Shown here: piece by piece, positions 3,146 through 62,094 of the stretch
Layout of the letters: every line of letters begins with the position of its first letter
Numbering within the stretch: position 1 is the first letter of the stretch
Assembly (NCBI GenBank): GCA_017507385.1
Contig: JAFWAX010000070.1
Span: forward strand, 1 to 64,000
Source of the DNA: Bacteroidaceae bacterium
Lineage (GTDB): Bacteria > Bacteroidota > Bacteroidia > Bacteroidales > Bacteroidaceae
Direction: 5' to 3'
Length of the DNA: 64,000 nt
Made by a program: the position numbers and the translations under genes
The notes under the pieces: generated by a model
Told to the model about the DNA's origin: nothing
Database searches by the model: none
Seen by the model: the letters and a program-made list of their open reading frames with translations, nothing else

Positions 3146-3221
3146 CACCGCCTGCATAATATTTAAAACACCGTGTTTGAAATATTTCGCAGACGGTGTT
3201 TTAAATATTATGCAGGCGGTG
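3146..3221. repeat. Palindromic element, family B, copy 1
   Basis: Two perfect 29-bp arms (3146-3174 and 3193-3221) flank an 18-base centre (3175-3192). The centre resembles a decayed direct copy of the right arm (GTTTgAAATATTtcGCAG). The same sequence family occurs at 19897-19973 and 47777-47852. It lies between two plus-strand genes, just after a conventional terminator, so it is not needed as one. Confidence 0.9.
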
Positions 3222-3447
3222 ATTGCGTACATGTCAATCACAATTCTGTATGATCTTTCGATGGCGGCAACAGAGAAAGTGAAAGCAGAAAGTACACAAC
3301 ACACACTCATTGGTCATGACAAACTGCATGTCCTCCAACTCACGTTATTTCACACGGTTCGTGCCCAGCAAGACCGCCATAAACTTGTAAAAGACCTTAT
3401 CCAGAGTGCTTATACGGCATTATTTCCCCGTTGGAGAAAAGAAGAGT
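3222..3447. other. Non-coding stretch, no gene recognised
   Basis: Between the family B element and the MATE promoter there is about 226 bases of ordinary-looking sequence. A short open frame crosses it and begins inside the repeat, but it has no promoter, no ribosome-binding site and no recognisable product. It may be decayed coding sequence. Confidence 0.4.
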
Positions 3448-3477
3448 TTTGTATTTGAAGAAAAATCCGTACCTTTG
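3448..3477 (+). promoter_or_regulatory. Bacteroidota-type promoter for the MATE gene
   Basis: TTTG at 3448-3451, an 18-base spacer and TACCTTTG at 3470-3477. It lies about 33 bases before the start codon at 3510. Confidence 0.75.
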
Positions 3478-3509
3478 AAGTCCGAAACAACACAACAGCA
3501 ATACAATCG

Positions 3510-4967
3510 ATGAGCCTTTCCAAAGACGAATTGCTGACACTGGTCAGAAAAGGAGCAAGAAACATGTCGTGGCAAGAAAAGCTACGACTAACTGTGTTAT
3601 TGAGCCTTCCAGCCATGATTGCCCAGCTTTCGTCGGTTGCCATGCAGATTATTGATGCAGCCATGCTCGGACGTCTTGGCACGAAAGAAGCAGCTTCTGT
3701 AGGACTCGTGTCCACCACCATCTGGCTTTTTGGCGGATTGTGCTCTGCCTTTGCCGCAGGCTTTTCTGTCCAGGTGGCACACTATGTGGGAGCCGAAAAC
3801 CTGCAAGGAGCACGCAACATCATCAGGCAAGGAATCTTTTCCGGATTGACATTCAGCCTCTTGCTTTCATTCATCGGCATAGCCATTGCCCCCAGTCTTC
3901 CCCACTGGCTTGGAGCAAGCGAGGATATTTGCGCTGATGCCACTGAATATTTCACCATCGTTGCCATAGCACTCCCCGTTCTTGAAATCAACACGTTAGC
4001 GGCAGGAAGCCTAAGATGCAGCGGCAACATCAAAGTGCCCAGCTTGCTCAACGCTATGATGTGTGTTCTCGACATCATCTTCAACTACCTCTTCATTTTT
4101 GAATTCGGCATGGGAACTGCAGGAGCTGCCTATGGCACGTTTGCCGCCTACATCATCACAATGATTTTCATGCTATACTTCTTGACCATAAAAGACAAAC
4201 ACCTCAAGTTTTCCTTAGACAAAAGACTGGGCGACTCCCAATACCAGCCCCAATACATCCCCACCAAAGAAACGCTGTTCAAAGCCCTGAAGATAGGTTC
4301 TCCCATCAGTTTGGAGCGAGGCGTGATGTGCGGAGCGCAAATTGCCATTACAGGCATCATCGCGCCATTGGGACCAGTTGCAATAGCGGCCAACACATTC
4401 GGCATCAACATCGAGAGCCTTTGCTACATGCCAGGATATGGCATTTCAGAAGCAGCCACCACGCTGGTTGGACAGAGTTTGGGCGCCAAAAGAAAAGACT
4501 TGATGAGAAGCTTCGCATGGATTTCTGTCGGATTGGGAATAAGCATCATGGGAATAATGGGCATCTTCATGGGAGTCTTTGCCCCCGAAATGATGCAAGT
4601 CATCACACAAGACACAGACGTCATAAAACTGGGAACAGAAATTCTCAGGATAGAGGCATGGGCAGAACCCATGTTTGCAGCCAGCATCGTAGCATACGGC
4701 GTGTTTGTCGGTTCAGGAAAGACCCTGATACCAAGCATCATGAACCTTGCCAGCATCTGGATTGTGCGACTTTCACTCGCCCTCCTGCTGGCGCCATCGA
4801 TGGGTCTGCATGGTGTCTGGATTGCCATGTGCATCGAGCTATGCTGGCGAGGCGGCGCTTTCCTGCTTCGCCTGAGAGGAAGGAGCTGGAGCAACCTCAG
4901 CATAACAGAGTCTTATTCTGTCCCCATGCAAGAGCAGCCTGTAAAAAAAGACAAGTTCAATATCTAA
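3510..4967 (+). CDS. MATE family multidrug/cation efflux transporter
   Basis: Inner-membrane exporter with two similar six-helix halves, expected to expel drugs or metabolites in exchange for Na+ or H+. The 485-residue length and about twelve hydrophobic segments fit the family. The opening region LPAMIAQLSSVAMQIIDAAM matches the conserved first MATE helix, and the second half repeats the pattern around GSPISLERGVMCGAQIA. It has its own promoter at 3448-3477 and is convergent with pnp, from which it is separated by a shared terminator. Substrate cannot be read from the sequence. Confidence 0.93.
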   Translation: MSLSKDELLTLVRKGARNMSWQEKLRLTVLLSLPAMIAQLSSVAMQIIDAAMLGRLGTKEAASVGLVSTTIWLFGGLCSAFAAGFSVQVAHYVGAENLQGARNIIRQGIFSGLTFSLLLSFIGIAIAPSLPHWLGASEDICADATEYFTIVAIALPVLEINTLAAGSLRCSGNIKVPSLLNAMMCVLDIIFNYLFIFEFGMGTAGAAYGTFAAYIITMIFMLYFLTIKDKHLKFSLDKRLGDSQYQPQYIPTKETLFKALKIGSPISLERGVMCGAQIAITGIIAPLGPVAIAANTFGINIESLCYMPGYGISEAATTLVGQSLGAKRKDLMRSFAWISVGLGISIMGIMGIFMGVFAPEMMQVITQDTDVIKLGTEILRIEAWAEPMFAASIVAYGVFVGSGKTLIPSIMNLASIWIVRLSLALLLAPSMGLHGVWIAMCIELCWRGGAFLLRLRGRSWSNLSITESYSVPMQEQPVKKDKFNI

Positions 4968-5007
4968 GACTTGACAACATTTTTGAATTCAGGCATGACC
5001 ACACAAA

Positions 5008-5034
5008 AAAGGCATCCCGTCTAAGGATGCCTTT
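5008..5034. terminator. Bidirectional terminator between MATE gene and pnp
   Basis: Arms of 10 bp (5008-5017 and 5025-5034) with A-rich and T-rich flanks on opposite sides. This suits termination of both converging transcripts. Confidence 0.8.
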
Positions 5035-5053
5035 CTCATATCATATATAAATC

Positions 5054-7351
5054 TTACTTCAACAAATCATCAAGTGCAGACTTGAAGCCGTCTCCCTCTG
5101 CAGCAGGTGCATCCTGGCGCAGCTCTTCTGCTCTTGGCTGGCGTTCCTCACGGCGAGGACGACGCTCTCCACGTTCTGGACGTGGACGGCGCTCGCGCTG
5201 TGGACGCTCAACATAGTCCTCAGGCTTCTCGATGAGAACTCGGCGAGAAAGCTTGAACTTGCCAGTCTTCTGGTCAATGTCAATCAGCTTCACCTCTATT
5301 GAGTCACCCTCCTTGATGCCAGCCTCTTCAACTGTTTCAAGTCTCTTCCAGTCGATTTCTGAGATGTGGAGCAAACCATCCTTGCCTGGCAAGAACTCAA
5401 CGAAGCATCCGTAAGGCATCACAGAGCGAACAGTTCCCTGGTACACTTCACCAACCTCTGGGATGGCAACGATAGCCTTGATCTTCGCCATAGCAGCTTC
5501 GATGGCTGTCTTGTCTGGAGCAGAAATCTGCACCTTGCCCACTCCATCCTCTTCTTCAATCGTGATGGTTGTCTGCGTATCCTCCTGCATCTGCTGGATT
5601 ACCTTACCGCCAGGACCGATGACAGCACCGATAAACTCCTTCGGAATGATAATCTGCTCGATGCGTGGAACATGAGGCTTGAGTTCTGGGCGTGGCTCAG
5701 AGATGGTCTTCATCATCTCTCCCATGATGTGCTCACGGCTTGCCTTAGCCTGCATGAGCGCCTTTTCAAGGATTTCGTATGAAAGACCGTCGCACTTGAT
5801 GTCCATCTGTGTTGCAGTCAGACCATTCTTTGTACCTGTAGTCTTGAAGTCCATATCGCCCAAGTGATCCTCATCTCCGAGAATGTCAGAGAGAATAGCG
5901 TACTTGTCCTCGCCTGGATTCTTGATAAGACCCATTGCGATACCTGCAACAGGATTCTTGATAGGCACACCTGCATCCATCAGAGCGAGTGTTCCTGCAC
6001 AAGTTGTAGCCATTGATGAAGAGCCGTTAGACTCAAGCACATCAGAAACCACACGGATTGTATAAGGATAGTCAGCAGGAATCTGTCCCTTGATGCCGCG
6101 CCATGCGAGATGGCCGTGACCGATTTCGCGACGGCCTACGCCACGCTGAGCTTTAGCCTCGCCTGTTGAGAATGGAGGGAAGTTGTAGTGAAGGAGGAAC
6201 TTCATGTAGTAGCGCTCCAATGCACCGTCAACGAGCTTCTCGTCCAGCTTCGTGCCGAGTGTTGCTGTAGCAAGCGCCTGTGTCTCGCCACGTGTGAAGA
6301 TGGCAGAGCCGTGAGGTCCTGGCAGCGGAGAAACCTCGCACCAGATTGGACGTACATCAGTTGTCTTTCTTCCGTCAAGACGGATACCCTCATCAAGGAT
6401 GCAGCGGCGCATAGCGTCACGCTCAACGTCATGATAATAACGGTCAATCAGCGCATACTTCTCTTCCAGCTCATCTTCGCTCAGCTCTGCATGTGCAGCA
6501 GCGTATGCCTCCTTGTAATCCTCGCGTATCTTCTCAAATGCCTCTGCACGCGCATGCTTCTCAAGCGCCTGCTTAGTCACATCGTATGCTGGCTGATAGC
6601 ACTTAGCCTGAAGGTCAGCCTTGAGCTCATCGTCGTTCACCTCATGGCAATACTCACGCTTCACGTCGGTGCCCAGCTCCTTCATTAGCTCCTTCTGGAT
6701 GCGGCACTGTGGCTTGATAGCCTCATGCGCAGCCTTCAGCGCCTCGAGCAAGTCCTGTTCCTGCACTTCCTTCATCTCGCCTTCCACCATCATGATGTTC
6801 TCCTCAGTGGCGCCCACCATCAGGTCCATATCAGCCTCTTTCAGCTGCTCGAATGTAGGGTTAATCACGAACTCTCCATTGATGCGCGCTACACGCACCT
6901 CCGAAATAGGTCCTTCGAAAGGAATGTCTGATGCTGCAAGAGCTGCGCTGGCAGCAAAACCAGCCAGAGCGTCTGGCATATCCTTGCCGTCGGCAGAGAA
7001 CACGTTGACATTCACATAAACTTCGGCATGATAGTTTGAAGGGAACAGCGGACGAAGCGCACGGTCAACAAGGCGGCAAGTGAGGATTTCCTCATCGCTA
7101 GCCTTTCCTTCACGCTTTGTGAAACCTCCAGGGAAACGGCCGTTAGCCGCATACTTCTCACGATACTCTACCTGGAGTGGCATAAAATCTGTTCCCGGTA
7201 CTGCATCTTTCGCTGCGCAAACAGTGGCCAGGAGCATAGTGTCGCCCATGCGGAGCATCACAGAACCATCGGCTTGCTTTGCCAGCTTTCCTGTTTCAAT
7301 GCTGATTTCTCTTCCGTCAGGCAATGAAACTTTCTTTGTAATTACGTTCAT
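5054..7351 (-). CDS. pnp: Polyribonucleotide nucleotidyltransferase (PNPase)
   Basis: 3'-to-5' phosphorolytic exoribonuclease for mRNA turnover. The 765 residues contain the expected order: two RNase PH domains with a helical linker, then a KH domain ([14 protein letters not shown]) and an S1 domain ([15 protein letters not shown]). After S1 there is a tail of about 50 residues very rich in Arg, Glu and Pro ([20 protein letters not shown]). It ends in a short LDDLLK segment. The tail is longer and more charged than in E. coli PNPase and could bind RNA or a partner protein; that is inference. A TATCTTTG element lies upstream at 7413-7420 on the same strand. Confidence 0.98.
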
Positions 7352-7412
7352 CTTTTAGGTTGTATATATATAAAACATCTGTTTCGTGCCACCAAACGGC
7401 ACAAAAATCGGA

Positions 7413-7420
7413 CAAAGATA
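7413..7420 (-). promoter_or_regulatory. Probable -7 element of the pnp promoter
   Basis: TATCTTTG on the minus strand, 62 bases before the pnp start. No clear TTTG was found at the expected -33 position. Confidence 0.5.
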
Positions 7421-7504
7421 GCTATTTTCCCGCACACAGCAGCCATCTCCGCACGAAAAAGCTCGCTTTCTCATGTTTTTTAGCAATTTATAAGACTTTT
7501 TGCC

Positions 7505-7524
7505 TATCATCTGCCACCTGCAAC
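7505..7524. repeat. 20-bp direct repeat, copy 1 (acyltransferase 3' end)
   Basis: This 20-bp sequence recurs exactly at 8725-8744, 1220 bp away. Copy 1 covers the last codons and stop of the acyltransferase gene (the C-terminus VAGGR). The pair brackets the gene and its promoter, as a duplicated target or recombination site would. Confidence 0.8.
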
Positions 7525-8842: not shown

Positions 8843-8924
8843 AAATCGCAACCTTCGGCTGATGAGCCAGAGGTTGCGATTGATGCGCCGAAACTTGCGG
8901 CTGATAAACCGAAGCTTGCGATTT
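8843..8924. repeat. Palindromic element, family E, single copy
   Basis: Outer arms of 18 bp (8843-8860 and 8907-8924) pair with two mismatches. Between them lie further direct and inverted copies of the same unit (GGTTGCGATT, CCGAAACTTGCGGCTGAT). This is the same repeated-palindrome plan as families A-D but a different sequence, and no second copy was found in the window. It lies in a 586-base gap between the divergent acyltransferase and thioredoxin-like genes. Confidence 0.7.
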
Positions 8925-9149: not shown

Positions 9150-9166
9150 CAAAAAGATTAAGAAAC

Positions 9167-10321: not shown

Positions 10322-10382
10322 ACCCGTTCCCGACTTTTACTTTTTCGCCACCTGCATTTCTTTTGAAAAAGGACTTGAAACA

Positions 10383-10467
10383 TCCCTTGAAATCGATGTG
10401 CCCCACACCGATTTTGTGGTGTGCCCCACACCGCCATTTCGGTGTGGGGCACATCGATTTCAAGGGA
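10383..10467. repeat. Palindromic element, family A, copy 1
   Basis: Perfect 28-bp arms (10383-10410 and 10440-10467) flank a 29-base centre. The centre is itself a short hairpin (GGTGTG CCC CACACC) and repeats the arm core. Related copies lie at 35723-35789 and 54511-54580. It sits between two convergent genes, next to a separate ordinary terminator at 10492-10524. Confidence 0.9.
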
Positions 10468-10491
10468 TATTGACCATTGACGAGATACAAA

Positions 10492-19896: not shown

Positions 19897-19973
19897 CACC
19901 GCCTGCATTATATCTCAAGCACCGTGTTTTAAATATTTCGCAGGCGGTGTTTTAAATATTATGAACACGGCAA
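19897..19973. repeat. Palindromic element, family B, copy 2 (decayed)
   Basis: CACCGCCTGC (19897-19906) pairs with GCAGGCGGTG (19940-19949), and two direct copies of the GTGTTTTAAATATT unit follow one another. The copy is less regular than the one at 3146-3221. It lies in the 343-base gap between the DUF4369 gene and asnS, both on the minus strand. The rest of that gap holds no gene I can support. Confidence 0.75.
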
Positions 19974-26260: not shown

Positions 26261-26326
26261 ACCGCACCCCTCGGGTCCGCCATGGCGGACCCGAGGGGTG
26301 CGGTGCGTCGTACCCGAGGGGTACGG
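26261..26326. repeat. Palindromic element, family C, copy 1
   Basis: Bases 26261-26304 are a perfect 44-bp palindrome with no loop. A third unit follows (GTACCCGAGGGGTACGG, 26309-26326). Related copies are at 42695-42757 and 47930-47973. It lies between convergent genes with no other terminator, so it may also end transcription. Confidence 0.9.
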
Positions 26327-29286: not shown

Positions 29287-29913
29287 ATGAAAAAAGCTTT
29301 TACCTTATTCAACATCATCACACTGCTCGGAATTTGTGCAGCATTCACTTCGTGTACGGATGAAGACTTGGACGAGTCCATGATTCTCTCCGGACAATGG
29401 CAAGGCAACTGGGGCATGTATTACGACTACGAGTACAGAGGAAGAATCTACACGTTCGACTCCTACGACACCGACATCGTATTTTATCCAGAATATGACT
29501 ATGCCACTTACGGCTATGGATATCAGGTGGATTGGTACAGCCGCGGCCCTTACACACACATGAGCTACCGCTTTCGCTGGAGCATCCAGGACGGCATTGT
29601 GTATCTGACCTACCCAGGCTACCCAAAATACAATACCAGCATACGTGACTACTGGCTCAACAACAGTCGCTTCACTGGCTATTTCACTAACGGAACAGAA
29701 AAGTTCACGCTCCACAAGATTGCCGACTACTACGACTGGTCATACTACTACGACTATGGAGACTACTATCAATGGTACAACGACAGCTGGAGCTGGGGAG
29801 GCTACTACGACGATTATTACTACGCCAACACACGCGGAACAGCTGAAAGCGACTCGCTCGGCACCGCAAAGGAAGGCCGTATCGTGAAGATAGGCAGCCG
29901 CTTGGCTCAATAA
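29287..29913 (+). CDS. Tyrosine-rich lipoprotein, function unknown
   Basis: 208-residue lipoprotein with lipobox AFTSC (Cys23) followed by acidic residues (TDEDLDES), a pattern linked to surface export of lipoproteins in Bacteroidota. The mature chain is extraordinarily rich in Tyr, Asp and Trp, for example WSYYYDYGDYYQWYNDSW and GGYYDDYYYAN. The LSGQWQGNWGMYYDYEY opening suggests a lipocalin-like beta barrel, as in many small Bacteroidales lipoproteins that start with 'GxWxG'. The start was chosen after the promoter element at 29214. No homologue is recognised with confidence. Confidence 0.82.
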   Translation: MKKAFTLFNIITLLGICAAFTSCTDEDLDESMILSGQWQGNWGMYYDYEYRGRIYTFDSYDTDIVFYPEYDYATYGYGYQVDWYSRGPYTHMSYRFRWSIQDGIVYLTYPGYPKYNTSIRDYWLNNSRFTGYFTNGTEKFTLHKIADYYDWSYYYDYGDYYQWYNDSWSWGGYYDDYYYANTRGTAESDSLGTAKEGRIVKIGSRLAQ

Positions 29914-29987
29914 AAACACTTGCCCTGCCCCTACGCAAGCTGTCCGAAACAGCCTCGCAGGAACAGGCAACAACAAGAAATCCAGAC

Positions 29988-30022
29988 GATTGGGGATGCG
30001 TCCGACAGGCGCATCCCCAATC
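29988..30022 (+). terminator. Hairpin terminator after the tyrosine-rich lipoprotein gene
   Basis: Perfect 13-bp arms (29988-30000 and 30010-30022) with a 9-base loop, followed by ATTTACTG, 75 bases after the stop codon. Confidence 0.65.
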
Positions 30023-30055
30023 ATTTACTGCCATCAGAGCAGCAAGCAAACTGCA

Positions 30056-30139
30056 CTGCATATCCAGTACCTCCGAAGAGGTACTCGAGTACTGCTATAG
30101 AGGTATTGCAGTACCTCTTCGGAGGTACTGAATATGCAG
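30056..30139. repeat. Palindromic element, family D, copy 1
   Basis: Perfect 21-bp arms (30065-30085 and 30110-30130) extend outward to about 30 bp with one mismatch. The 24-base centre (30086-30109) is a decayed copy of the right arm. Each unit is itself palindromic (AGTACCTC...GAGGTACT). The second copy, at 61945-62016, lies inside a coding frame. Confidence 0.9.
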
Positions 30140-30347
30140 CGGGGCTATAGAAAACTATCCAGACAGAGCGCCAAGCCCCACTTACATTTATATATAATGT
30201 ACGACGGAAGGTACACGCCATCCCCAATGACAAGCTATGGCCTGCCTGTACAAAGGCAAGAATGCCACACCTAAAAACCACAAATCATCATTTTACGATA
30301 GCAATCGGGCTAAAAAGCATACAATTTGTTTTTTTTGCACAAAAAGG

Positions 30348-30378
30348 TTTTATCTGTGAATTTTTTTCGCTAATTTTG
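30348..30378 (+). promoter_or_regulatory. Promoter of ilvE
   Basis: A TTTT variant at 30348-30351, a 19-base spacer and TAATTTTG at 30371-30378, 64 bases before the start. Confidence 0.65.
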
Positions 30379-30442
30379 CACAAATTTATCAAAGTTGTGT
30401 TTCGGGCACAGCATTGTACCGCATCAAATAATACAATAAAAT

Positions 30443-31465
30443 ATGGAAAGTTTAGACTGGTCAAGTCTTGGATTCGGCTATCACAAGACTGATTACAACG
30501 TGCGCTGCTACTACCGCAACGGCAGCTGGGGAGAAATAGAAGTTTGTTCAGAAGAAACCATTCCGATCCACATGGCGGCAACCTGCCTCCACTACGGACA
30601 AGAAGCATTTGAGGGACTGAAGGCTTACCGCTGTCCTGACGGCAAGGTGCGCGTGTTCCGTTCTGACGAGAACGCTGCGCGTCTGCAAAGCACATGCCGC
30701 GGCATCCTGATGCCCGAACTGCCAACAGAGAAGTTCAACGAGATGGTTGACAAGGTGGTGCGCCTGAACGAGCGCTTCATTCCTCCTTACGAGACAGGAG
30801 CAACCCTCTACGTTCGTCCGCTCCTCATCGGCACCAGCGCACAGGTAGGCGTGCACCCGTCTGAAGAGTACCTTTTCATCATTTTTGTCACTCCAGTAGG
30901 CCCATACTTCAAGGGCGGATTCTCTTGCAATCCATACGTCATCACTCGCGAGTTCGACCGTTCAGCGCCTCTCGGTACCGGCACTTACAAGGTGGGCGGC
31001 AACTATGCAGCTTCTCTCCGTGCCAACAAGATGGCGCACGACCTCGGATATGCTTGCGAGTTCTACCTCGACGCTAAGGAGAAGAAATATATGGACGAGT
31101 GCGGAGCAGCAAATTTCTTCGGCATCAAGAACAACACATACGTCACTCCGAAATCTTCATCTATCCTCCCATCTATCACGAACAAGTCGCTCATGCAGCT
31201 GGCTGAGGACCTCGGCATGAAGGTGGAGCGCAGACAGATTCCAGAGGAGGAGCTTGAGACATTTGAAGAGGCTGGCGCATGCGGAACAGCTGCTGTCATC
31301 TCGCCAATCAGCAAGATTGACGACCACGACCTCGGCAAGAGCTTCGTCTTCTCAGAGGACGGCAAGCCAGGACCTTGGTCAACCAAGCTGTACAACCTCC
31401 TGCGCGGCATCCAGTATGGCACTGAGCCTGACACACACGGATGGACCCGTGTCGTGATTGAATAA
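30443..31465 (+). CDS. ilvE: Branched-chain amino acid aminotransferase
   Basis: PLP enzyme for the last step of Val, Ile and Leu synthesis and the first step of their breakdown. The 340-residue length fits the longer (type II) group. The cofactor lysine is Lys183 in GTYKVGGNYAASL, and the ECGAANFFGIK and EACGTAAVISPI segments are typical of the family. A consensus promoter lies upstream. The next gene, a sugar nucleotidyltransferase, follows by 30 bases and is probably cotranscribed, although the functions are not related. Confidence 0.96.
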   Translation: MESLDWSSLGFGYHKTDYNVRCYYRNGSWGEIEVCSEETIPIHMAATCLHYGQEAFEGLKAYRCPDGKVRVFRSDENAARLQSTCRGILMPELPTEKFNEMVDKVVRLNERFIPPYETGATLYVRPLLIGTSAQVGVHPSEEYLFIIFVTPVGPYFKGGFSCNPYVITREFDRSAPLGTGTYKVGGNYAASLRANKMAHDLGYACEFYLDAKEKKYMDECGAANFFGIKNNTYVTPKSSSILPSITNKSLMQLAEDLGMKVERRQIPEEELETFEEAGACGTAAVISPISKIDDHDLGKSFVFSEDGKPGPWSTKLYNLLRGIQYGTEPDTHGWTRVVIE

Positions 31466-31495
31466 AAACACAACCTAACAAACAACTAATAGATT

Positions 31496-32416
31496 ATGAA
31501 ACCTACACTTTTTCTCCTTGCTGCAGGTATGGGAAGCCGTTACGGCGGCCTGAAGCAGCTTGACGGTCTCGGACCAAACGGCGAAACCATCATGGACTAC
31601 TCCATCTACGATGCCATCCAAGCTGGATTCGGCAAGATTGTATGGGTTATCCGCAAGGATTTCGAAGAGCAGTTCCGCACTCAGATTCTCTCTAAATATG
31701 AAGGCGTAGTGCCATGCGAACTCTGTTTCCAGAGCATCGACAGCCTGCCAGAAGGATTCAAGTGCCCGGAAGGCCGTGTGAAGCCTTGGGGAACTAACCA
31801 TGCAGTGCTGATGGGCAAGGATGTGATTAAGGAGCCATTCGCTGTCATCAACTGCGACGACTTCTATGGCCGTGACGCATTCATGTCAATTGGCAAGTAC
31901 CTCTCCAACCTGCCAGAAGGAGCAAAGAACAAATACGCAATGGTGGGTTTCCGCTGCTGCAACACACTCTCTGAGAATGGTTCTGTTGCTCGCGGCGTGT
32001 GCGAGTACGACAACAGCCGCCACCTCACCGACGTGGTTGAGCGCACAGAAATTCTCCGTCAGGCAGACAAGGGCAATGCCATCTGCTACAAGGACGAGCA
32101 GGGAGAATGGATTCCACTGGACGAGAACGTGCCTGTATCCATGAACATGTGGGGCTTCACTCCCGACTACTTCGAGTACAGCGAAGCGTACTTCAAGGAA
32201 TTCCTGTCAGACCCAAAGAACATGGAAAATCTGAAGGCTGAATTCTTCATTCCGCTCATGGTCAACAAGCTCATCAACGACGGAACTGCAACAGTTGAGG
32301 TGCTCGACACCACTTCTGTATGGTTTGGCGTGACATACGCCGCCGACCGTGAAGCCACAGTTGAGCGCATCGCCAAACTTGTTGCTGACGGAATCTATCC
32401 AAACAAACTTTTCTAA
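31496..32416 (+). CDS. Sugar-phosphate nucleotidyltransferase-like protein
   Basis: 306-residue member of the NTP-transferase fold. The nucleotide-binding start is LLAAGMGSRYGGLKQLDGLG, a close variant of the GxGTRL loop, and the catalytic acidic site is VINCDDFYG. The usual sugar-binding EKP motif is not clear, and there is no left-handed helix domain. Substrate cannot be assigned. It is probably cotranscribed with ilvE and closed by the terminator at 32452-32492. Confidence 0.85.
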   Translation: MKPTLFLLAAGMGSRYGGLKQLDGLGPNGETIMDYSIYDAIQAGFGKIVWVIRKDFEEQFRTQILSKYEGVVPCELCFQSIDSLPEGFKCPEGRVKPWGTNHAVLMGKDVIKEPFAVINCDDFYGRDAFMSIGKYLSNLPEGAKNKYAMVGFRCCNTLSENGSVARGVCEYDNSRHLTDVVERTEILRQADKGNAICYKDEQGEWIPLDENVPVSMNMWGFTPDYFEYSEAYFKEFLSDPKNMENLKAEFFIPLMVNKLINDGTATVEVLDTTSVWFGVTYAADREATVERIAKLVADGIYPNKLF

Positions 32417-33634: not shown

Positions 33635-35599
33635 ATGATGAAAAACTTTACACAAAGAGCATTGACACTCATCGTCATAGTGTCTTTCATGCTGTCATTC
33701 AGCCAATTGGCATACGCATTTCCGACACCGACAACCAACTACAAAAATCTCAACATTATCGAGACAGTACAGGTTGACCACCAAATGACAACCGCCGAAG
33801 GTGCGTGGGCGGCTTTCAACATCACCTCTTTGATTGAAAAAACTGGAGTCACTTACGAAGAGGCAGCAGCGAACATCGGCAAAATCATGAATTTCTGGCA
33901 ATACGACCATTCCGAATCAGCCGAAGACTATTATGTTGCCGACGAGCTTTGGCCTATGGAGACATGGGGATACTGGTGGTTCAATTTTGCCGACGAAGAG
34001 AAGACCACGTTCGTGGCCGACCAGTGGAGCGAAGGAAGCTGGGGTTGGACTGGCAGTGGCGTAACACTCGGCACAGACAGCGTCTGCTGGATTTTTTTAG
34101 GTCCATATAATAGTGCAGAAGTTGGTCAAAAAGCTCATTCTCAATTGTATGCAGTCATCGGCAGCGACGCTATTCAATTCAACATTGACGCAGAGGTAGT
34201 AGGCCAGCCTATGCGCAAGTTAGACGAGTGTACCCTTCGAGGCGAAACAACCATCTACACCAACAACCAAGTTTCAAATGGATGGAATGGCAGACCCGTA
34301 AGATGGAACGTGCAAGAAGCACTTGATTCTCTCGGATGCGGCCTTGTCGATATTCACTTCATGATGCTCGATGCCGACAGTTGCCTGAATCCCAACTATA
34401 CTGCAACATCAGGTTTCTGGATAGACATGGATGGCAAATTGACAGATTATGTCCAAAACACAAAGACATGGTTTGTTGAGTATAACTCATCAACTGGCGC
34501 ACTGAATGTTGGACATATGCCAAATATGTTCACAGGAGATGGAACAGAAGTTTGTGAAGGAACTGTATATCTTTGTTTCTACGACAATATTTACAAAGTT
34601 AACGTTGTCATGGACGTAATCCCAGACCGTGAAGCGCCAACAGAATTCATTGAGAAGGGACGTGAAGAACTTTACTTGCAAGGACTCGCAAACTACAACG
34701 ACTGGAGTGTTGGCTACAACGTGCAGCTTGACTATCAGCACGCATTAGAATTGACAGAATGCGGCCGCGGAGACGACCTGACTCTCTATGCTAAATATCC
34801 AGATGGAACATGGACAAAAGAGACATCAACAACTGTTCCTTCTGGCTTCTGGATGACCCCAGAAGGTCACTTCTGCTGGTACGGAAGCGGAAATGCCTAC
34901 TTCTTCGAGAACGTGAATAGCGGCGTCATCGGCAATTGGGGACACACCCCTGGAGCCGACGACCCTGGAACAACCTATACAGGAGAATTCTACTATGTAA
35001 ATGAAGCCAACGGCTACTACTACACTGTGGAGTATCGCATTGACTTCGTTTCTGAAATCGTAGAAAACACCATTGTAGGCGAAGACAGCATCACCGTATT
35101 TGTCAGCGACGAAGGCTATGTCACTCCGCTCGACGTAACTCCAGCCTTGTCTGCCTTAGGCATTGAAGAAACTGAGATTCCAGAAGACGCTCAATGGCTC
35201 GTTCCATCCTTCGCCACCCTCTATGCGCCAACCAACGACACAGGAGAAGGCTATGTATATGATGCAGAAGGCAACACTTGCAACATGGATTCTGAAGAAG
35301 CTGAAAATGCCGTTTACAGACTCTACTATCATCCCGAAGAAGCAGGATTCTATGGTGAAGTATGGAAAGATTTCACAGAAGAAACCCGATACAATGTAAG
35401 GCAAGCACTCGCCTACAACGGCAAGTACTACATCTACCACATCACCGTCGCGTTAGCAAGTGTCGCAGACGCTATTGAAGAAATCACAACATCTGGAAAC
35501 AGGAATGACGGCAACATCTACAACCTGAATGGCCAAAAAGTAGATGACAGCTATCGTGGCATTGTCATCAAGAACGGCAAAGCCTTCATTCAGAAATAA
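33635..35599 (+). CDS. Large secreted protein with repeated DUF4859-like domains
   Basis: 654-residue exported protein with a signal peptide (about 1-29, LAYAF). The body contains about three related beta-rich domains. Each alternates an N-terminal 'DVxxALxxLG' helix with a 'SGFWMTPEGHFCWYG' type segment, the pattern I associate with DUF4859, often found with glycan-acting enzymes. No catalytic motif was seen. The end, NIYNLNGQKV...RGIVIKNGKAFIQK, matches a C-terminal tail frequent in Prevotella exported proteins and resembles a type IX secretion signal. A binding role on polysaccharide or at the cell surface is inferred. The MM start makes 33638 an alternative. Confidence 0.78.
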   Translation: MMKNFTQRALTLIVIVSFMLSFSQLAYAFPTPTTNYKNLNIIETVQVDHQMTTAEGAWAAFNITSLIEKTGVTYEEAAANIGKIMNFWQYDHSESAEDYYVADELWPMETWGYWWFNFADEEKTTFVADQWSEGSWGWTGSGVTLGTDSVCWIFLGPYNSAEVGQKAHSQLYAVIGSDAIQFNIDAEVVGQPMRKLDECTLRGETTIYTNNQVSNGWNGRPVRWNVQEALDSLGCGLVDIHFMMLDADSCLNPNYTATSGFWIDMDGKLTDYVQNTKTWFVEYNSSTGALNVGHMPNMFTGDGTEVCEGTVYLCFYDNIYKVNVVMDVIPDREAPTEFIEKGREELYLQGLANYNDWSVGYNVQLDYQHALELTECGRGDDLTLYAKYPDGTWTKETSTTVPSGFWMTPEGHFCWYGSGNAYFFENVNSGVIGNWGHTPGADDPGTTYTGEFYYVNEANGYYYTVEYRIDFVSEIVENTIVGEDSITVFVSDEGYVTPLDVTPALSALGIEETEIPEDAQWLVPSFATLYAPTNDTGEGYVYDAEGNTCNMDSEEAENAVYRLYYHPEEAGFYGEVWKDFTEETRYNVRQALAYNGKYYIYHITVALASVADAIEEITTSGNRNDGNIYNLNGQKVDDSYRGIVIKNGKAFIQK

Positions 35600-35618
35600 C
35601 ATCTTTTAGACCTCAAAC

Positions 35619-35660
35619 AGAAAAGCCATGTCGGAATGTTTCGGCATGGCTTTTCTATTT
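35619..35660 (+). terminator. Intrinsic terminator after the DUF4859-like gene
   Basis: 12-bp arms (35619-35630 and 35645-35656) and a T-rich right side. Confidence 0.8.
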
Positions 35661-35722
35661 GAAGTTCAACCAGCTTTTCTGGTCATTCGCAAACCCAAGA
35701 ACGCATTAAAAACAGCCATCCT

Positions 35723-35789
35723 ATCGGTGTGCCCCACAACGGAAAGTCGGTGTGCCCCACTCCGACTTCCCGTTGTGGGGCACACCGAT
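35723..35789. repeat. Palindromic element, family A, copy 2
   Basis: Perfect 20-bp arms (35723-35742 and 35770-35789). The 27-base centre forms its own hairpin (AAGTCGG/CCGACTT) around the shared TGTGCCCCAC core. It lies between a terminator and the ZIP promoter. Confidence 0.88.
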
Positions 35790-42694: not shown

Positions 42695-42757
42695 CGTACC
42701 CCTCGGGTCCGCCATGCCGTACCCGAGGGGTACGATGTGTCGGACCCGAGGAGTACG
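42695..42757. repeat. Palindromic element, family C, copy 2
   Basis: 14-bp arms (42695-42708 and 42721-42734), then a third unit CGGACCCGAGGAGTACG (42741-42757). It lies between the convergent GH30 and PatB genes. The 20 bases upstream resemble those before copy 3 (AACGAA, spacer, AAACCG), so homology may reach beyond the palindrome. Confidence 0.85.
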
Positions 42758-47776: not shown

Positions 47777-47852
47777 CACCATGAACATAATATTTAAAAT
47801 ACCGTTTTTTAAATATTTCGCAAGCGGTGTTTTAAATATTATGCGTACGGTG
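47777..47852. repeat. Palindromic element, family B, copy 3
   Basis: Arms of 28 bp pair with several mismatches. The core units (ATAATATTTAAAA and TTTTAAATATTAT) are kept. It lies between convergent genes. Confidence 0.8.
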
Positions 47853-47929: not shown

Positions 47930-47973
47930 AACCGAGCCCCTCGAGTACGCCATAGCGTATCCGAGGGGTTGGA
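47930..47973. repeat. Palindromic element, family C, copy 3 (degenerate)
   Basis: AACCGAGCCCCTCGAGTACGC and its imperfect inverse GCGTATCCGAGGGGTT, without a clear third unit. Less regular than the other two copies. Confidence 0.7.
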
Positions 47974-54342: not shown

Positions 54343-54510
54343 ACGTTTAACACATATTATAAATAAAACATTCAAAAGGATAATTGGCACGACATTTAGA
54401 ACGATTTATTCTTGTCAACATTCCATCAATCAGATTCATTTTTGCCTTCCTTCCTCAACGAAAGCACCACCTTTTACGGACAGGAAACAATCTACGAATT
54501 GCCTCAAAAA

Positions 54511-54580
54511 CGATGTGCCCCACATCGGCACATCGGTGTGGGGCACATCGAAATTACGCTGTGGGGCACAGCGTAATTTA
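54511..54580. repeat. Palindromic element, family A, copy 3
   Basis: First hairpin: 14-bp arms 54511-54524 and 54537-54550. A second adjacent hairpin (54551-54580) has 13-bp arms around GGGG and again holds TGTGGGGCACA. It sits in the 459-base gap between the divergent RND operon and luxS. Apart from the two promoters I see nothing else there. Confidence 0.85.
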
Positions 54581-54676
54581 GGTTGCCCGTGCATCAATCA
54601 GCACGCATATAGCTGGCAGAATTCGTCCGGTTATGATTATATTTATCGATTCATTCGTTTACTCAAAAAAAATACC

Positions 54677-54721: not shown

Positions 54722-55210
54722 ATGCAAGACATGAAAAAAATTCCTTCATTCACCATCGACCACCAGCGCCTTCTGCGTGGCATATACGTCAGCAGGAAAG
54801 ATGAACTCGGCTGCGAAACCATCACCACGTTCGACATCCGCATGAAAGAGCCTAACCGCGAACCTGCGCTTTCCCCTTCTGCGCTTCACTGCATTGAGCA
54901 TTTAGCGGCCACCTACCTGCGCAATCACCCCAAATGGAAAGACAGCATCATCTACTGGGGGCCTATGGGATGCCTCACGGGAAACTACCTCCTCGTAAAA
55001 GGAGACCTCACCTCGCAAGACATTCTGCCTCTGATACAGGACACCTTCGCGTTTATCTCCGAATTTGAAGGCGAGGTGCCCGGACAGTCGGAAAAAGACT
55101 GCGGGAACCACCTGCTCATGAATCTTCCCGAAGCAAAATGGGAAGCAAGAAAATATCTGAAAGAAGTGCTTGAAAACATCTCTGATAAAAACCTTTTTTA
55201 TCCAAACTAA
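54722..55210 (+). CDS. luxS: S-ribosylhomocysteine lyase
   Basis: Cleaves S-ribosylhomocysteine to homocysteine and DPD, the precursor of the AI-2 signal. The metal-binding motif is HCIEH (His56, Glu59, His60), the catalytic Cys84 is in MGCLTGNYL and the third ligand Cys127 is in DCGNH. All sit at the positions usual for LuxS, which supports the start at 54722 over 54731. The 162-residue length is normal. A long open frame upstream in the same frame is not coding, since the promoter and a family A repeat lie inside it. Confidence 0.95.
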   Translation: MQDMKKIPSFTIDHQRLLRGIYVSRKDELGCETITTFDIRMKEPNREPALSPSALHCIEHLAATYLRNHPKWKDSIIYWGPMGCLTGNYLLVKGDLTSQDILPLIQDTFAFISEFEGEVPGQSEKDCGNHLLMNLPEAKWEARKYLKEVLENISDKNLFYPN

Positions 55211-57561: not shown

Positions 57562-57579
57562 TACACCCATTCTCCCAGC

Positions 57580-57608
57580 AAAGGCAAACTGCATTCAGTT
57601 TTGCCTTT
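57580..57608 (+). terminator. Hairpin terminator after leuB
   Basis: 12-bp left arm (57580-57591) and 13-base right arm (57596-57608) with one bulge and a 4-base loop. The T-run is part of the stem only. Confidence 0.6.
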
Positions 57609-57652
57609 ACGGGGAAGAAAGGCCTGAAAGAAAAAGGGGGACTGATTAATTT

Positions 57653-58573
57653 ATGCCATTAATATTACCAGACCAACTTCCAGCCATAGATGAACTGAAG
57701 CAGGAAAACATCTTCACGATGGGCTACAAACGAGCGGACAGTCAACAGATCCGTCCGCTACGTTTAGCAGTACTCAACCTGATGCCGCTGAAAATCACGA
57801 CAGAAACAGACTTCATACGCATCTTGTCCAATTCTGCGCTGCAAATTCAGGTGGAATTCATGAAACTGAAGTCACACACGAGCAAAAACACACCCGTGGA
57901 ACACATGCTGGCCTTCTATCGCAATTTCGAAGAGATGCAGAAGGAGAAGTATGACGGCTTGCTCGTGACTGGTGCGCCTTTGGAATTCATAGATTATGAA
58001 GATGTTACCTATTGGCAGGAGCTTCAGGAAGTCTTTACCTGGGCACACCACAACGTGACCAGCACCATTTATGTCTGCTGGGCTGCATTTGCAGGGCTTT
58101 ACCACTTCTATGGAGTGCCTAAGCGCAACACACCACAAAAAGTGTTTGGCGTATTCAATCATCAGATGCTATCTCCCGAACTTCCCATCTTCCGTGGCTT
58201 TGACGACGAATTCTTCGCACCACACAGCCGCCATTGCGAAATCATGCGCGAAGATATTGAGAAGGTTCCCGGACTCAACATCATCGCCGAAAGCCCAGAA
58301 GCAGGAGTGACCATCATCGAAGCACGAAACGGACGCGAGTTCTTCATCACCTGCCATTTGGAGTATTCACCACTGACATTAGATGGAGAATACAAGCGCG
58401 ACCTCGCCAAAGGGAAACCCATCAACATGCCACAGAACTACTACCCCGACAATGACCCGACGAAGACTCCTGTGGTAAGATGGCGAGCTGCTGCAAATTT
58501 GCTCTACACCAACTGGCTGAACTACTACGTTTATCAAGAGACGCCATTCAACATCAACGACATCACAGAATAA
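57653..58573 (+). CDS. metA: Homoserine O-acyltransferase, MetA family (acetyl type)
   Basis: First committed step of methionine synthesis. The triad is at the standard numbering: Cys142 in YVCWAAFAGLYH, His235 and Glu237 in CHLEYS. Residue 111, in GAPLE, is Glu. In the MetA family Glu111 is linked to acetyl-CoA use and Gly111 (E. coli) to succinyl-CoA use. So this is predicted to be a homoserine O-acetyltransferase despite the MetA fold. The stop TAA shares its last base with the ATG of the U32 gene (TAATG), so the two are translationally coupled. Confidence 0.93.
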   Translation: MPLILPDQLPAIDELKQENIFTMGYKRADSQQIRPLRLAVLNLMPLKITTETDFIRILSNSALQIQVEFMKLKSHTSKNTPVEHMLAFYRNFEEMQKEKYDGLLVTGAPLEFIDYEDVTYWQELQEVFTWAHHNVTSTIYVCWAAFAGLYHFYGVPKRNTPQKVFGVFNHQMLSPELPIFRGFDDEFFAPHSRHCEIMREDIEKVPGLNIIAESPEAGVTIIEARNGREFFITCHLEYSPLTLDGEYKRDLAKGKPINMPQNYYPDNDPTKTPVVRWRAAANLLYTNWLNYYVYQETPFNINDITE

Positions 58574-60219
58574 TGCGAAGCATTGAACTTCTCGCTCCAG
58601 CAAAAACAGCAGACATTGGCATCGAGGCTATCAAGCACGGTGCTGATGCTGTTTATATAGGTGCTGCATCCTTCGGCGCAAGGGCTGCGGCTGGCAACAG
58701 CGTAGAAGACATTGCTCGCCTGGTTTATTTTGCCCACCTCTACAAAGCCAAAGTGTATGTCACGCTCAACACTATCATTTTCGAAGAAGAGATGAAAGCC
58801 GTTGAGAAAATGGCATGGCAACTGCATGAAATCAAAGTAGATGCATTCATCATCCAAGACCTGAAACTGCTGTCATTAAACCTGCCACCCGTTCCACTGC
58901 ATGCCAGCACACAAATGGACAACCGCACGGTGGAGAAGGTGCAGCAACTCGCCCAATTGGGTTTTCCGCAAGTCGTACTGGCAAGAGAACTCACCACAGA
59001 AGAAATAGCGGAAATCCACCAAGCTTGTCCCGAGACCCAGCTTGAAGTATTCGTACACGGCGCCCTCTGTGTCAGCCTCAGCGGACGCTGCAATGCCAGC
59101 GAAGCCCTCTTTGGAAGAAGTGCCAACCGAGGCGAATGCGCCCAAGTGTGCCGTATGGCCTTCGACCTGATTGCCGATGGGAAGACGGTGTTGAGAGACA
59201 AGCACTTGCTGTCGCTGAGAGACAACTGCCAGATTGACCACCTCGAACCACTCATCATGGCTGGCGCCTCTTCCTTCAAGATAGAGGGAAGGTTAAAAGA
59301 TGCTGACTATGTCAAAAACGTCACAGCTGCATATTCCCAAGCCCTCGATGCCATCATTGCCAAACATTCTCAGCAGTTCTGCCGGGCTTCCTCCGGACAT
59401 AGTTTGCTGAAATTCAAGCCAAACGTATATAAAAGCTTCAATCGCGGATTTGTCAAAGACACCAGCAAACCCGACGCCAATTTCGACACTCCAAAAGCGA
59501 TGGGAGAAGCAATCAACGTCCAGACAACCCTGCATAATGGCGACGGACTCTGCTATATAGACAAAGGGAAACTCGTTGGTTTCAGGCTCAACAACGCAGC
59601 TGCATTTCATCCGGTCAAAGGAATACAATACTTTCGCAATCAAGACATCGAATGGGACAAAGCCCTATCCAAGCCTTCGGCCGAAAGACGAATTGCTGCT
59701 GACATTGAAATGCACGACGACCGAATCACCATGACGGACGAAGATGGGCTGACTGCCACTCTCCACACCAGCGAAAGCTTCGAGTTGGCGCATACTCACC
59801 AAACAGAAAACATCAAAAGGCAGCTCAGCAAAATGGGCGGCACCATATTTGATGCTCGGAATATTGACATCCGATTGAAAAAGAACTACTTCATCCCATC
59901 TTCCACACTCACCCGGTGGCGAAGAGAGCTAACCTCCCAACTTACCGCCGAAAGGCTCAAATACTATCCAAAAGCCCAGCAAGAGCATACCAGCAGGGAG
60001 ATAGAAACCGAAACGCCTTACGAACTGACACACGATCCATCCGTTCCAGTCATGATTTGCAAGCACTGCATCCGCAGGCAGCTCGGCATTTGCCTGAAAG
60101 AGAAGTCATCATCATCACTGCGCACAGCTAAAGAACTCACATTGCGGATGGCAAATGGCGCAACCTTCTCCCTTGACTTCGACTGCAAGAATTGTTTCAT
60201 GAAACTCTACCTCCAATGA
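58573..60219 (+). CDS. U32-family protein, RlhA/YdcP-like
   Basis: 548-residue member of the U32 peptidase-like family. The N-terminal barrel starts IELLAPAKTADIGIEAIKHGADAVYIG. The conserved region ALCVSLSGRCNASEALFGRSANRGECAQVCR holds the cysteines thought to bind iron-sulfur or metal in RlhA/TrhP-type RNA hydroxylation enzymes. A C-terminal extension ends with CKHCIRRQLGICLK and CKNCFM. This plan resembles E. coli RlhA (YdcP), which modifies 23S rRNA, more than a collagenase. Overlap with metA (1 base) and with the next gene (ATGA) indicates an operon. RlhA function is inferred. Confidence 0.85.
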   Translation: MRSIELLAPAKTADIGIEAIKHGADAVYIGAASFGARAAAGNSVEDIARLVYFAHLYKAKVYVTLNTIIFEEEMKAVEKMAWQLHEIKVDAFIIQDLKLLSLNLPPVPLHASTQMDNRTVEKVQQLAQLGFPQVVLARELTTEEIAEIHQACPETQLEVFVHGALCVSLSGRCNASEALFGRSANRGECAQVCRMAFDLIADGKTVLRDKHLLSLRDNCQIDHLEPLIMAGASSFKIEGRLKDADYVKNVTAAYSQALDAIIAKHSQQFCRASSGHSLLKFKPNVYKSFNRGFVKDTSKPDANFDTPKAMGEAINVQTTLHNGDGLCYIDKGKLVGFRLNNAAAFHPVKGIQYFRNQDIEWDKALSKPSAERRIAADIEMHDDRITMTDEDGLTATLHTSESFELAHTHQTENIKRQLSKMGGTIFDARNIDIRLKKNYFIPSSTLTRWRRELTSQLTAERLKYYPKAQQEHTSREIETETPYELTHDPSVPVMICKHCIRRQLGICLKEKSSSSLRTAKELTLRMANGATFSLDFDCKNCFMKLYLQ

Positions 60220-61190
60220 AGAAGATACTCTACGTCATCATTGCCATCATTGTCACTTCATGCATCGGAGAAACGGCACTCCCTCCCACAGCACATAAAG
60301 ACAGTACCGACATACGTACCACTACAGCTGCCTACCTCTCCGACACCATCAGCGACAGCATCCTCCTCATGCCCTCCACCCACCAGGCTGACTCACTGCT
60401 ATTCCGCCTTACGCATCACTATTCCGAGAACTTCAACTTCCTCGTCAAGGCCGATTCACTCACGCTTGTCCCCCGTGAAGGCGACATGATGCACGACACC
60501 TGCAAAGTGTACCACGGCGATGTCATTGTCGTGGCAGCCATCAAGCCACTGGCAGGCGGCGACATCGACTCCATTTGGGTGAAAGTGGCAAGCAATCAGC
60601 ACACAATGGGCTGGATTCTCGAACAAGAACTGCTGCAAGGCACAACCCCCGACGACCCTATCTCTGAAATGCTCGATGCACTCACAGGAAGCCGCGCCAT
60701 CTGGATGACCTCCATCATCCTCATCGGCATCATTGCCATCGCTTTCAGCAAAAGGAAGAACTTGCGTAAAAGCCTGCTGCCATCATTCTTCAACGAAATG
60801 GACAGCCCCTACCCCTCCTTCTTCCTCATCCTCACCACCATCATTGCTGCACTCTATGCTTCCATACAGAACTTCGTCCCTGAATTTTGGCAGGAGTACT
60901 ACTTTCACCCCACGCTCAACCCCTTAGTGCTGCCACCCCTCATGGCCACACTCGTTGTCATGGCATGGCTGCTCATCATCACACTCATCGCTGTCATCGA
61001 TGAAATCTACCATCATTTCTATTTCATGGCAGGCATAACATACCTCGCCAAGTTGCTCGGATTGGCTATGATGGTTTACTTGTTCGTCTCGTGGACAACC
61101 ATCATCTATATAGGATACGCCATATTGCTCATACTGCTTCCCCTTTTGGGGAAACAAATGCTCCATCGCATCAAAGATATAAAACATTGA
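60216..61190 (+). CDS. Membrane lipoprotein with an SH3-like domain, unknown role
   Basis: 324-residue protein. The N-terminal signal has a Cys at VTSC (residue 16), so it may be a lipoprotein. Residues about 60-150 have an SH3b-like pattern (DSIWVKVASNQHTMGWILEQEL). After that come four to five transmembrane segments (about 155-320), one preceded by a basic patch SKRKNLRKSLL. The ATGA overlap with the U32 gene puts it third in the metA operon. I recognise no enzyme motif. Its position suggests no clear link to methionine synthesis. Confidence 0.75.
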   Translation: MKKILYVIIAIIVTSCIGETALPPTAHKDSTDIRTTTAAYLSDTISDSILLMPSTHQADSLLFRLTHHYSENFNFLVKADSLTLVPREGDMMHDTCKVYHGDVIVVAAIKPLAGGDIDSIWVKVASNQHTMGWILEQELLQGTTPDDPISEMLDALTGSRAIWMTSIILIGIIAIAFSKRKNLRKSLLPSFFNEMDSPYPSFFLILTTIIAALYASIQNFVPEFWQEYYFHPTLNPLVLPPLMATLVVMAWLLIITLIAVIDEIYHHFYFMAGITYLAKLLGLAMMVYLFVSWTTIIYIGYAILLILLPLLGKQMLHRIKDIKH

Positions 61191-61302
61191 GTTCGACGAC
61201 TCTTTCCAAAGCCATCGAACTCGTACTCATTATATCAGATTTCTCGATTATCTTATCAACCTATAGCAACGTTCACCAACACGATATATCTCTCAACAGA
61301 AT

Positions 61303-62094
61303 TTACCTCTTTTTATATTTGTCAAAGAATGATTTTGTAGATGTTTCGTAAGTGCCATCGGGCAAAATGAGCCTATTACCATAGTAAGAAACTTCCATTT
61401 GGAGTGAAACCAAAATCTTCAAGAAATCCTCCCCTTTCAGCATAACAGCATTTTTCAACACAGGGTATTCTTTTTGCATTTCCTTCAACTGCTTTTTGCT
61501 GACGAGCTTTGATGTCGTATAAGGCAAGATTACTGCCTCCTTGTCCATTTCTGTCCGATTTGCCCTGTAAAGGCTGTCTATTTCTATGAAATTCTTCTTT
61601 ACGGGATAGTTAATTGACATCAAAATCACTTTCTTATCCTTGTAAGGAGCTGTCAGCTTCTTGACAATTGGGGCAGCCAATGTGGAAGCGACAGGATAGC
61701 TATAGTTTGGGGATTTAATTGAAGACTCGGCTTCGGCTGTCCAGACCTGATTCAGAATCCGTGTATGGGGAAGCTTAAACTGCATATCAAAAGGCCTTAC
61801 CCTTCCTCGTGATGCATTATATTCCATCCTTCCTGAAAGATAAGACGCCAGTAATGTTTCTCCCGCTCCAAGCATCTCAGCTGCAGCACACCGGTTGAGA
61901 CTGTCAGCCTCAGGCTCCCAGCCTTTTGCTTCAGGATGGAAAAGCATGTCCAGTACCTCCATAGCGGTACTACAAAACCTCCTAAGCGGTACTCGAGTAC
62001 CTCTTAGGAGGTACTGATAGTCAAAGTGTAAACGAAGAGAATATGAAAGGCTCACATTTGTGGATTTCGTTTTTTCCAGCATTGCAAATCTCAT
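61303..62094 (-). CDS. Unknown protein with a family D palindrome inside its frame
   Basis: 263-residue open frame downstream of the histidine kinase, in the same direction. Residues about 27-50 (YQYLLRGTRVPLRRF and onward) are encoded by the family D repeat at 61945-62016, so the element was read in frame without a stop. The rest (51-263) looks like a genuine soluble protein (for example EIDSLYRANRTEMDKEAVILPY), but I do not recognise it. The true start could be the ATG at 62094, or Met46 (61959) or Met51 (61944), with the repeat as leader. No promoter was seen directly upstream, so it may be expressed with the kinase. Confidence 0.55.
   Translation of the reverse strand: MRFAMLEKTKSTNVSLSYSLRLHFDYQYLLRGTRVPLRRFCSTAMEVLDMLFHPEAKGWEPEADSLNRCAAAEMLGAGETLLASYLSGRMEYNASRGRVRPFDMQFKLPHTRILNQVWTAEAESSIKSPNYSYPVASTLAAPIVKKLTAPYKDKKVILMSINYPVKKNFIEIDSLYRANRTEMDKEAVILPYTTSKLVSKKQLKEMQKEYPVLKNAVMLKGEDFLKILVSLQMEVSYYGNRLILPDGTYETSTKSFFDKYKKR
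61945..62016. repeat. Palindromic element, family D, copy 2 (inside a coding frame)
   Basis: Three units: AGTACCTCCATAGCGGTACT, then 61978-61994 pairing with 61997-62013 with one mismatch. The units match the element at 30056-30139. It lies in the reading frame of the 61303-62094 protein. Confidence 0.85.

Follow-up and report, generated by a model that had tools for sequence, protein, structure and literature searches.

Palindrome triplets at a fixed pitch, probably REP-like interspersed repeats, in a Bacteroidaceae genome

In bacteria, explanations of REP-like repeats mostly invoke a single enzyme family, RAYT. REPs are biased towards the 3' ends of genes and are not known to be associated with target duplication. 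Among the Bacteroidales, a MITE called BrickBuilt occurs in Porphyromonas gingivalis. Its 19 copies are intergenic and contain 23-nt tandem repeats; between 1 and 22.8 direct repeats are accompanied by a long leader and tail, and by ends like those of the IS5 family (PMC4596501). The PINSR element of Prevotella intermedia/nigrescens, thought to be non-coding, has 177 and 184 intergenic copies in two strains; it is lineage-specific, 188 bp long and has no terminal inverted repeats (PMC4755523). In Pseudomonas fluorescens SBW25, the unit is the REP doublet, and triplets fall short of expectation, with 26 versus an expected 44 (PMC3116915). Finally, REPs with a CGTC tag apparently have no dedicated transposase (PMC3733652). 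Note that our statements on these reports, here and below, refer to the accessible portions of each text.

Here, we analysed a stretch of 64,000 nucleotides, referred to as the window, from a bacterium related to rumen species. The host genome assembly (G000) totals 2.38 Mb, in 84 contigs, and is 78% complete. A sequence-only reading had named twelve short elements in the window, in five families (A to E), and inverted-repeat structures do lie at or near all twelve places (Table 1). For each of families A, B, C and D, none of 100 dinucleotide shuffles reached the observed count of cores. The same reading held that all twelve share one three-unit architecture. This is exact for A and C, and looser for B and D; C3 has two units, one unit of B2 is decayed, and membership of E1 in the class is not established. 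By eye, the pitch of the other families was not seen in E1 in the window. Element A3 falls within a long open reading frame, as called. Homology of that gene to a congener, G028, begins only near 54729, and A3 is therefore probably intergenic. Other inverted repeats are close by: a distinct terminator-like hairpin sits beside B1 (3109-3135), and a second long inverted repeat, not called terminator-like, is upstream of A2 (35610-35665).

Table 1. Positions and units of the twelve elements in the window.
Element	Position	Strand	Units
A1	10379..10471	+	CG-edged 17-bp units 10394-10410, 10417-10433, 10440-10456
A2	35723..35789	+	units 35725-35741, 35748-35764, 35771-35787
A3	54502..54582	-	units 54511-54527, 54534-54550, 54557-54573; terminator-like on minus strand
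B1	3143..3224	-	three AATATT-type units, 23-bp pitch
B2	19897..19960	-	two clear units 23 bp apart and one decayed
B3	47777..47852	-	three B units, 23-bp pitch
C1	26260..26328	-	units 26263-26279, 26286-26302, 26309-26325; terminator-like on minus strand
C2	42691..42761	-	units 42695-42711, 42718-42734, 42741-42757
C3	47933..47972		two decayed C-type units only (47933-47949, 47956-47972), 6-base spacer; read directly
D1	30056..30139	+	20-bp units 30066-30085, 30088-30107, 30110-30129; 2-bp gaps, 22-bp pitch
D2	61951..62016	+	units 61952-61971, 61974-61993, 61996-62015; 22-bp pitch
E1	8843..8924		two overlapping inverted repeats

The core-to-core pitch is 23 bp in A1 to A3, B1 to B3, C1 and C2, and 22 bp in D1 and D2; outer units of D are 44, sometimes 45, bp apart. 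Units of A and C have the form CG-N-arm4-N3-arm4'-N-CG, which is 17 bp long and followed by 6 bases, with the third unit usually inverted. The A unit is CG-N-TGTG-CCC-CACA-N-CG, with six variable bases between units. The C core, ACCC-CTC-GGGT, is on the same plan, and the spacers in C1 are CCATGG and GTGCGT. Family B has the 23-bp pitch without the CG frame, and its plus/minus core pairs start 36 bp apart. A further lag-23 repeat, F, includes one element that fits the frame (CG-A-TGCA-GGG-TGCA-G-CG, with TAATTA between units). As the sequence-only reading had held, the elements do not fit a CRISPR array, which has direct repeats, long unique spacers and cas genes: here, spacers are 6 bases long, and there are three units, the third inverted.

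We measured the geometry in several ways. A pattern of two A units, permitting a pitch of 19-27 bp, matched 22 places in the host genome, all with the 23-bp pitch. These correspond to 19 A elements: in 15, two units share an orientation and one is inverted; in 3, all units have the same orientation; and 1 has only two good units. Three exact cores are present in 18 of the 19. A second test, blind to cores, scanned for CG-edged palindromes in threes. Host DNA (376 kb in 19 stretches, window included) gave 27 frames with unit 17 and spacer 6, whereas 80 other unit/spacer sizes gave none. Stretches of 24 congeners (753 kb), six of them picked as element-bearing, gave 15 frames at 17/6, including one across an A/C fusion, plus 3 at 17/7 and 2 at other sizes; frame densities in both samples are biased, because stretches were partly pre-selected, and the contrast between sizes is unbiased. 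The density of A in the 376-kb sample is likewise inflated, because many stretches were picked for A matches. Other families contributed 270 kb, drawn from 13 genomes, and the scan found no frames there.

A lag scan of the 376 kb of host DNA gave 38 clusters at lag 23, whereas the remaining lags between 12 and 60 each gave 0-8. The genus sample differed: the 41 and 39 clusters at lags 14 and 21 exceeded the 31 at lag 23, and many of those 31 are not CG-framed triplets; the CG-frame test is the cleaner measure. Note that the lag-14 and lag-21 repeats, common in congeners, suggest 7-base tandem arrays. We also scored palindromes across 39 A, 8 A' and 33 C elements, a set chosen because each has three units. 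Scores were 5.8-6.2 of 7 at offsets 0, +23 and +46, and 1.4-2.6 at -23 and +69. Hence, in this set, a fourth unit is at background level, except in a few shifted or fused cases. The rule has variants. In the A' elements of G031 and G034, both spacers are 7 bases and the pitch is 24; an A-type element of G031 has pitch 23. Doublets also occur, as in C3 and at L079 of G028. Since pitch varies among families (22, 23, 24), it is not one fixed machine distance.

Copy number was determined by pattern searches, for A to D, in 45 genomes of the genus, host included. Reversed patterns gave 0 matches for A and C, and one place each for B (in G040) and D (in G022). A-like matches number 80 places in the host genome, 1-7 in 13 others and 0 in 31. 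Family C is present in 13 of the 45 genomes, with 160 places in G028, 97 in the host, 94 in G035, 57 in G015, 29 in G016, 26 in G041 and 1-11 in 7 more; 32 genomes have none. For B, there are 139 unit matches in the host genome and three in two other genus genomes. For D, there are 40 units in G028, 17 in the host and 1 each in three others. Different species thus amplify different cores, and the case that each core occurs once or twice per genome is excluded for A to D. If an A or C element accounts for up to 2 pair places, and a B element for three units, the host genome has at least 40 A, 49 C and 47 B elements, with at least 8 of D visible. The resulting lower bound is 144 elements, or about 1 per 16.5 kb. 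High copy number had been predicted, and the predicted density, one element per 5 kb, holds in the window; genome-wide, the lower bound is sparser.

The taxonomic range is narrow. In a family sample, A-like matches were found in 8 of 301 genomes, all belonging to this genus (8 of 21, host included), and in none of the 280 genomes from 29 other genera. A collection of named species genomes, from which records of the host genome may be excluded, contained nine stretches with the exact C doublet: five from roe-deer rumen Bacteroidaceae assemblies, three from a single reindeer assembly and one from Prevotellaceae UBA4359. A phage origin was also considered and set aside; exact C-doublet and A-doublet patterns had 0 matches in viral contigs.

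Several genomes supplied 82 entries of A, A' and C, one A' element being counted twice, and a home-made gene finder was used to class their gene context. There were 28 convergent, 41 co-directional and 4 divergent places, with 5 inside predicted genes and 4 at edges; A3 is among the 5, probably because the start of its gene was called too early. Intergenic bases in the host sample are 66% co-directional, 22% divergent and 13% convergent. Hence, 28 of 73 classed places lie between convergent genes versus 13% of intergenic bases. In 66 of 75 cases, a stop codon lies no more than 150 bp upstream; the median distance to the nearest one is 45 bp. Such positions would fit functional 3'-end structures, that is, terminators or mRNA-end hairpins under selection, in families that are convergent or spread by gene conversion. 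This reading, which we consider unlikely, also draws on the T-run common in A (T at +5 after unit 3 in 31 of 31 elements), on a second hairpin after two of three folded C elements, one with a T-run (L029), and on the orientation of A, which is with the gene in 16 of 19. However, C is oriented with the gene in only 5 of 16 cases and A' in 0 of 2, so there is no common rule. Furthermore, a terminator scan covering 58.0 of the 64 kb found 24, 20 and 18 terminator-like matches, versus 21.9, 19.4 and 18.0 in shuffles, and no excess overall. Among the twelve window elements, only C1 and A3 have a strong match, and a few others touch matches of 5-6 pairs. Window B and D elements are without T-runs, and B1 adjoins a terminator-like hairpin that is separate from it. 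Finally, an intrinsic terminator, a GC-rich hairpin with a T-run right behind it, requires neither three units nor a 23-bp pitch. In agreement with the sequence-only reading, the elements are probably not terminators as a class. Rfam, at the gathering score, had 0 matches in the window, and only RNase P in five loci; L029:3620-4056 is a bacterial RNase P of class A.

The outer two units had been said to form a hairpin. In the window, unit 1 does pair with unit 3 in A1, B1 and D1; the outer arms of A1 (45 nt) are 89% complementary and those of B1 (41 nt) are 90%. The clearest covariation, in contrast, is between units 2 and 3. We examined 31 A and 27 C elements with an inverted third unit, several of them from other genus genomes. 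The base to the left of unit 2 and the one to the right of unit 3 are complementary in 23 of 31 A elements (12.1 expected) and in all 27 C elements (14.4 expected). In A, the right base of unit 1 pairs with the left base of unit 3 in 17 of 31 (9.6 expected), and flank pairing past the first base is near expectation. Within units, covariation is absent from the 31 A elements, and gives a weak signal in units 2 and 3 of C (16 of 27, p 0.03; 14 of 27, p 0.05).

The families had been taken as unrelated in sequence, sharing a mechanism and not descent. As put, this is not supported: A and C share the CG frame together with A-run and T-run flanks. Across species, A-type cores grade through TGTG-CCC-CACA, TGTG-CTC-CACA, TGTG-AGT-CACA and TGTC-CCC-GACA. 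Moreover, at L104:10334-10465 in G016, an A triplet is fused to a C triplet in one 23-bp register, and the last unit looks like a hybrid. On this evidence, common descent with turnover of cores fits the A-like families at least, with B and D unlinked. One orthologous intergenic space has three A units in the host (L030:10150-10450) and, in G028 (L079), an A-like doublet plus a separate C triplet; read from the alignment, both arms of the A place have changed in step at two positions. Such turnover bears on a reading in which the three palindromes are immobile, operator-like sites for a chromosome-organising or regulatory dimer. Three dyads, equally spaced near two helical turns, would suit such a role, as would the flanking N positions of A, with no covariation inside units. 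Yet cores vary among families of one genome and among sister species, and A-like matches are absent from 31 of 44 other genus genomes, although one would expect a fixed regulator to retain its site. We therefore regard operator-like sites as improbable.

Local change is most apparent at D1. Window positions 29781-32180 (about 2.4 kb) are 97-100% identical to G028 in most 150-base steps, and the two steps containing D1 are 91 and 95% identical. Between 29880 and 30460, there are 26 listed differences, 12 inside D1 and 8 just to its left, and the left flank of D1 in the host resembles the reverse complement of its right flank. Also, by alignment, the inner spacer is inverted between two copies in G015 (L211 and L212). 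RNA hairpins can be both generated and preserved by template switching (PMC8794818). Passive replication errors, by which template switching alone enlarges or duplicates palindromes, with no enzyme and no selection, would explain the cluster of 20 differences, the mirrored flank and the inverted spacer, but are a very improbable source of the elements as a whole: errors at one site cannot spread the same core and frame to many sites, and the 23-bp pitch is held in A, B and C. As a separate observation, neighbours of the 29781-32180 tract are mostly 51-89% identical to G028, with 99% at 34281-34580; judged by these identities, the two tracts appear to be recent recombination tracts.

Evidence on mobility comes from repeated and empty sites. 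In G043, one 34-base stretch of an element lies at three places with different flanks. Two copies in G016 diverge, on the right, at TTTTGAGG; on the left, they do so some ten bases past CCTC. The suggested comparison of empty and filled sites worked at one place, where a C element of G016 is absent from G011: between the same two convergent genes, 105 bp are replaced by 10 bp, with flanks of 385 bp at 90% and 299 bp at 81% identity. This could also be a deletion in G011. In G015 and G006, the element follows the same gene as in G016, and the other flank differs; in G010 and G034, the corresponding gap holds unrelated DNA. Between the host and G028, intergenic DNA is mostly too diverged for such a comparison. 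Since certain elements are shared by descent among species, with 86-95% identity, frequent movement is not required. For 37 A and 28 C elements, target duplications of 3-5 bases at a common offset were no more common than in shuffles.

Three side observations follow. First, 457 bp of L080 (G029) and L085 (G043) match at 99.6% identity as far as the right end of a C element, beyond which the two are unrelated; from the alignment, the break may reflect a recent transfer or an assembly fault. Second, there is an element of 130-140 bp whose direct end motifs, TTGGTCAWWWTGTAC, are separated by 115-118 bp, and inside it lies an A' triplet with a pitch of 23-24. We list 15 distinct copies, found in G043 (L206:937-1066, L207, L208, L237, L253, L113, L256-L258 and L260-L262) and elsewhere (L236 and L252 in G041; L226 in G008). 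The reversed end motif matched once or twice in the genomes searched for it. Five end motifs seemed to be single; four are pairs with a decayed partner, and one (L259) is without an element, so no autonomous, gene-bearing copy was found among these five places. Third, a region of several hundred bases is repeated in G016, at L229, L240, L248 and L254, with 86-94% identity and a shared TTGGTCAATTTGTAC. That sequence, present at several G016 places, belongs to this other repeat and was set aside.

A RAYT partner had been suggested. We searched for the RAYT/Y1 domain, PF01797, and found it over the cut-off in 14 of the 45 genus genomes. It had no match in 8 of the 13 C-bearing genomes (the host, G007, G011, G028, G031, G035, G041 and G043). 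Among the other five, matches are strong in G006 and G016, weak but over the cut-off in G015 and G030, and below it in G029. Single absences are weak evidence, because assemblies are incomplete (the host is 78% complete, G041 99% and G043 98%), and the overall pattern is not weak. Around 22 Y1 loci (1.9-3.4 kb, 10 from other families), there were three single pattern matches, none in the frame described here. A RAYT/Y1 partner is therefore unsupported by both distribution and neighbourhoods, and no mobilising enzyme was found across the 45 genomes and 22 loci.

We consider that the elements are probably short, non-autonomous, interspersed repeats of a REP-like kind, mostly triplets. Copy number, position and hairpin pairing all resemble REP behaviour. 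In family A, the unit that replicates probably spans about 85 bp, with three 17-bp palindromes tiled at 23 bp between an A-run flank and a T-run flank. Copies would arise by transposition of hairpin-forming DNA, with the enzyme supplied in trans. The two-turn pitch may put all three palindromes on roughly one face of the helix, where dimers of one protein could bind them. Indeed, given three dyads with equal spacers and a pitch close to two helical turns, a complex of three protein dimers seems the most natural cause of the geometry. Arms could be kept matched by template switching in replication, by the need of the copying enzyme for a hairpin, or by both. Locations at 3' ends may be the least harmful insertion sites, and some of the copies may have acquired a role as terminators or mRNA ends. 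Counting against this reading, no mobilising enzyme was found, the empty site may be a deletion, some elements are inherited, and both pitch and orientation to genes differ from family to family.

More tentatively, the elements may be selfish DNA independent of RAYT, in which the unit that replicates is a triplet of dyad sites, two helical turns apart, recognised by a multimeric and fast-evolving protein; core and pitch (22, 23 or 24 bp) would turn over between families and species, with the three-site plan kept. Several families with one three-site geometry, in carriers where RAYT is mostly undetected, point to another hairpin-copying route in bacteria. Sister species place different cores on one frame, so co-variation offers a way to look for the protein behind it. 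The fixed geometry is also a simple detector for such repeats elsewhere.

How, then, do these elements compare with described systems? No such frame is described in the accessible portions of PMC4596501, PMC3733652, PMC3116915 and PMC4755523, or in the titles and abstract openings that searches of open-licence literature returned, which are weak evidence of absence in print. By its description, BrickBuilt lacks a frame of CG-edged palindromes (PMC4596501, in part), and the lack of target duplication at a common offset speaks against MITEs, which have target site duplications and the terminal repeats of a known IS. PINSR, compared by partial description only, is similar in copy number, intergenic place and lineage specificity. 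CGTC-tagged REPs are likewise REP-like; the elements here differ by having three units at fixed pitch and no CGTC tag. Like REPs, they are high-copy, intergenic, imperfect palindromes, with units of 17-20 bp that are slightly shorter than the 20-40 bp typical of REPs. Reading the aligned A and C units, we saw no GTAG or CGTC end tag, and unit edges are CG; nor is an inverted doublet the replicative unit, as it is in REPINs, given the three exact cores of most A elements. On the end tag, RAYT and the REPIN doublet rule, we therefore file the elements as a REP-like variant and not as REPs. With REPs, REPINs and RAYT of Pseudomonas and E. coli, they share short, high-copy, intergenic palindromes, lineage-specific families and inverted hairpin pairs; whereas REPINs are doublets, here triplets prevail, on a fixed 17+6 frame.
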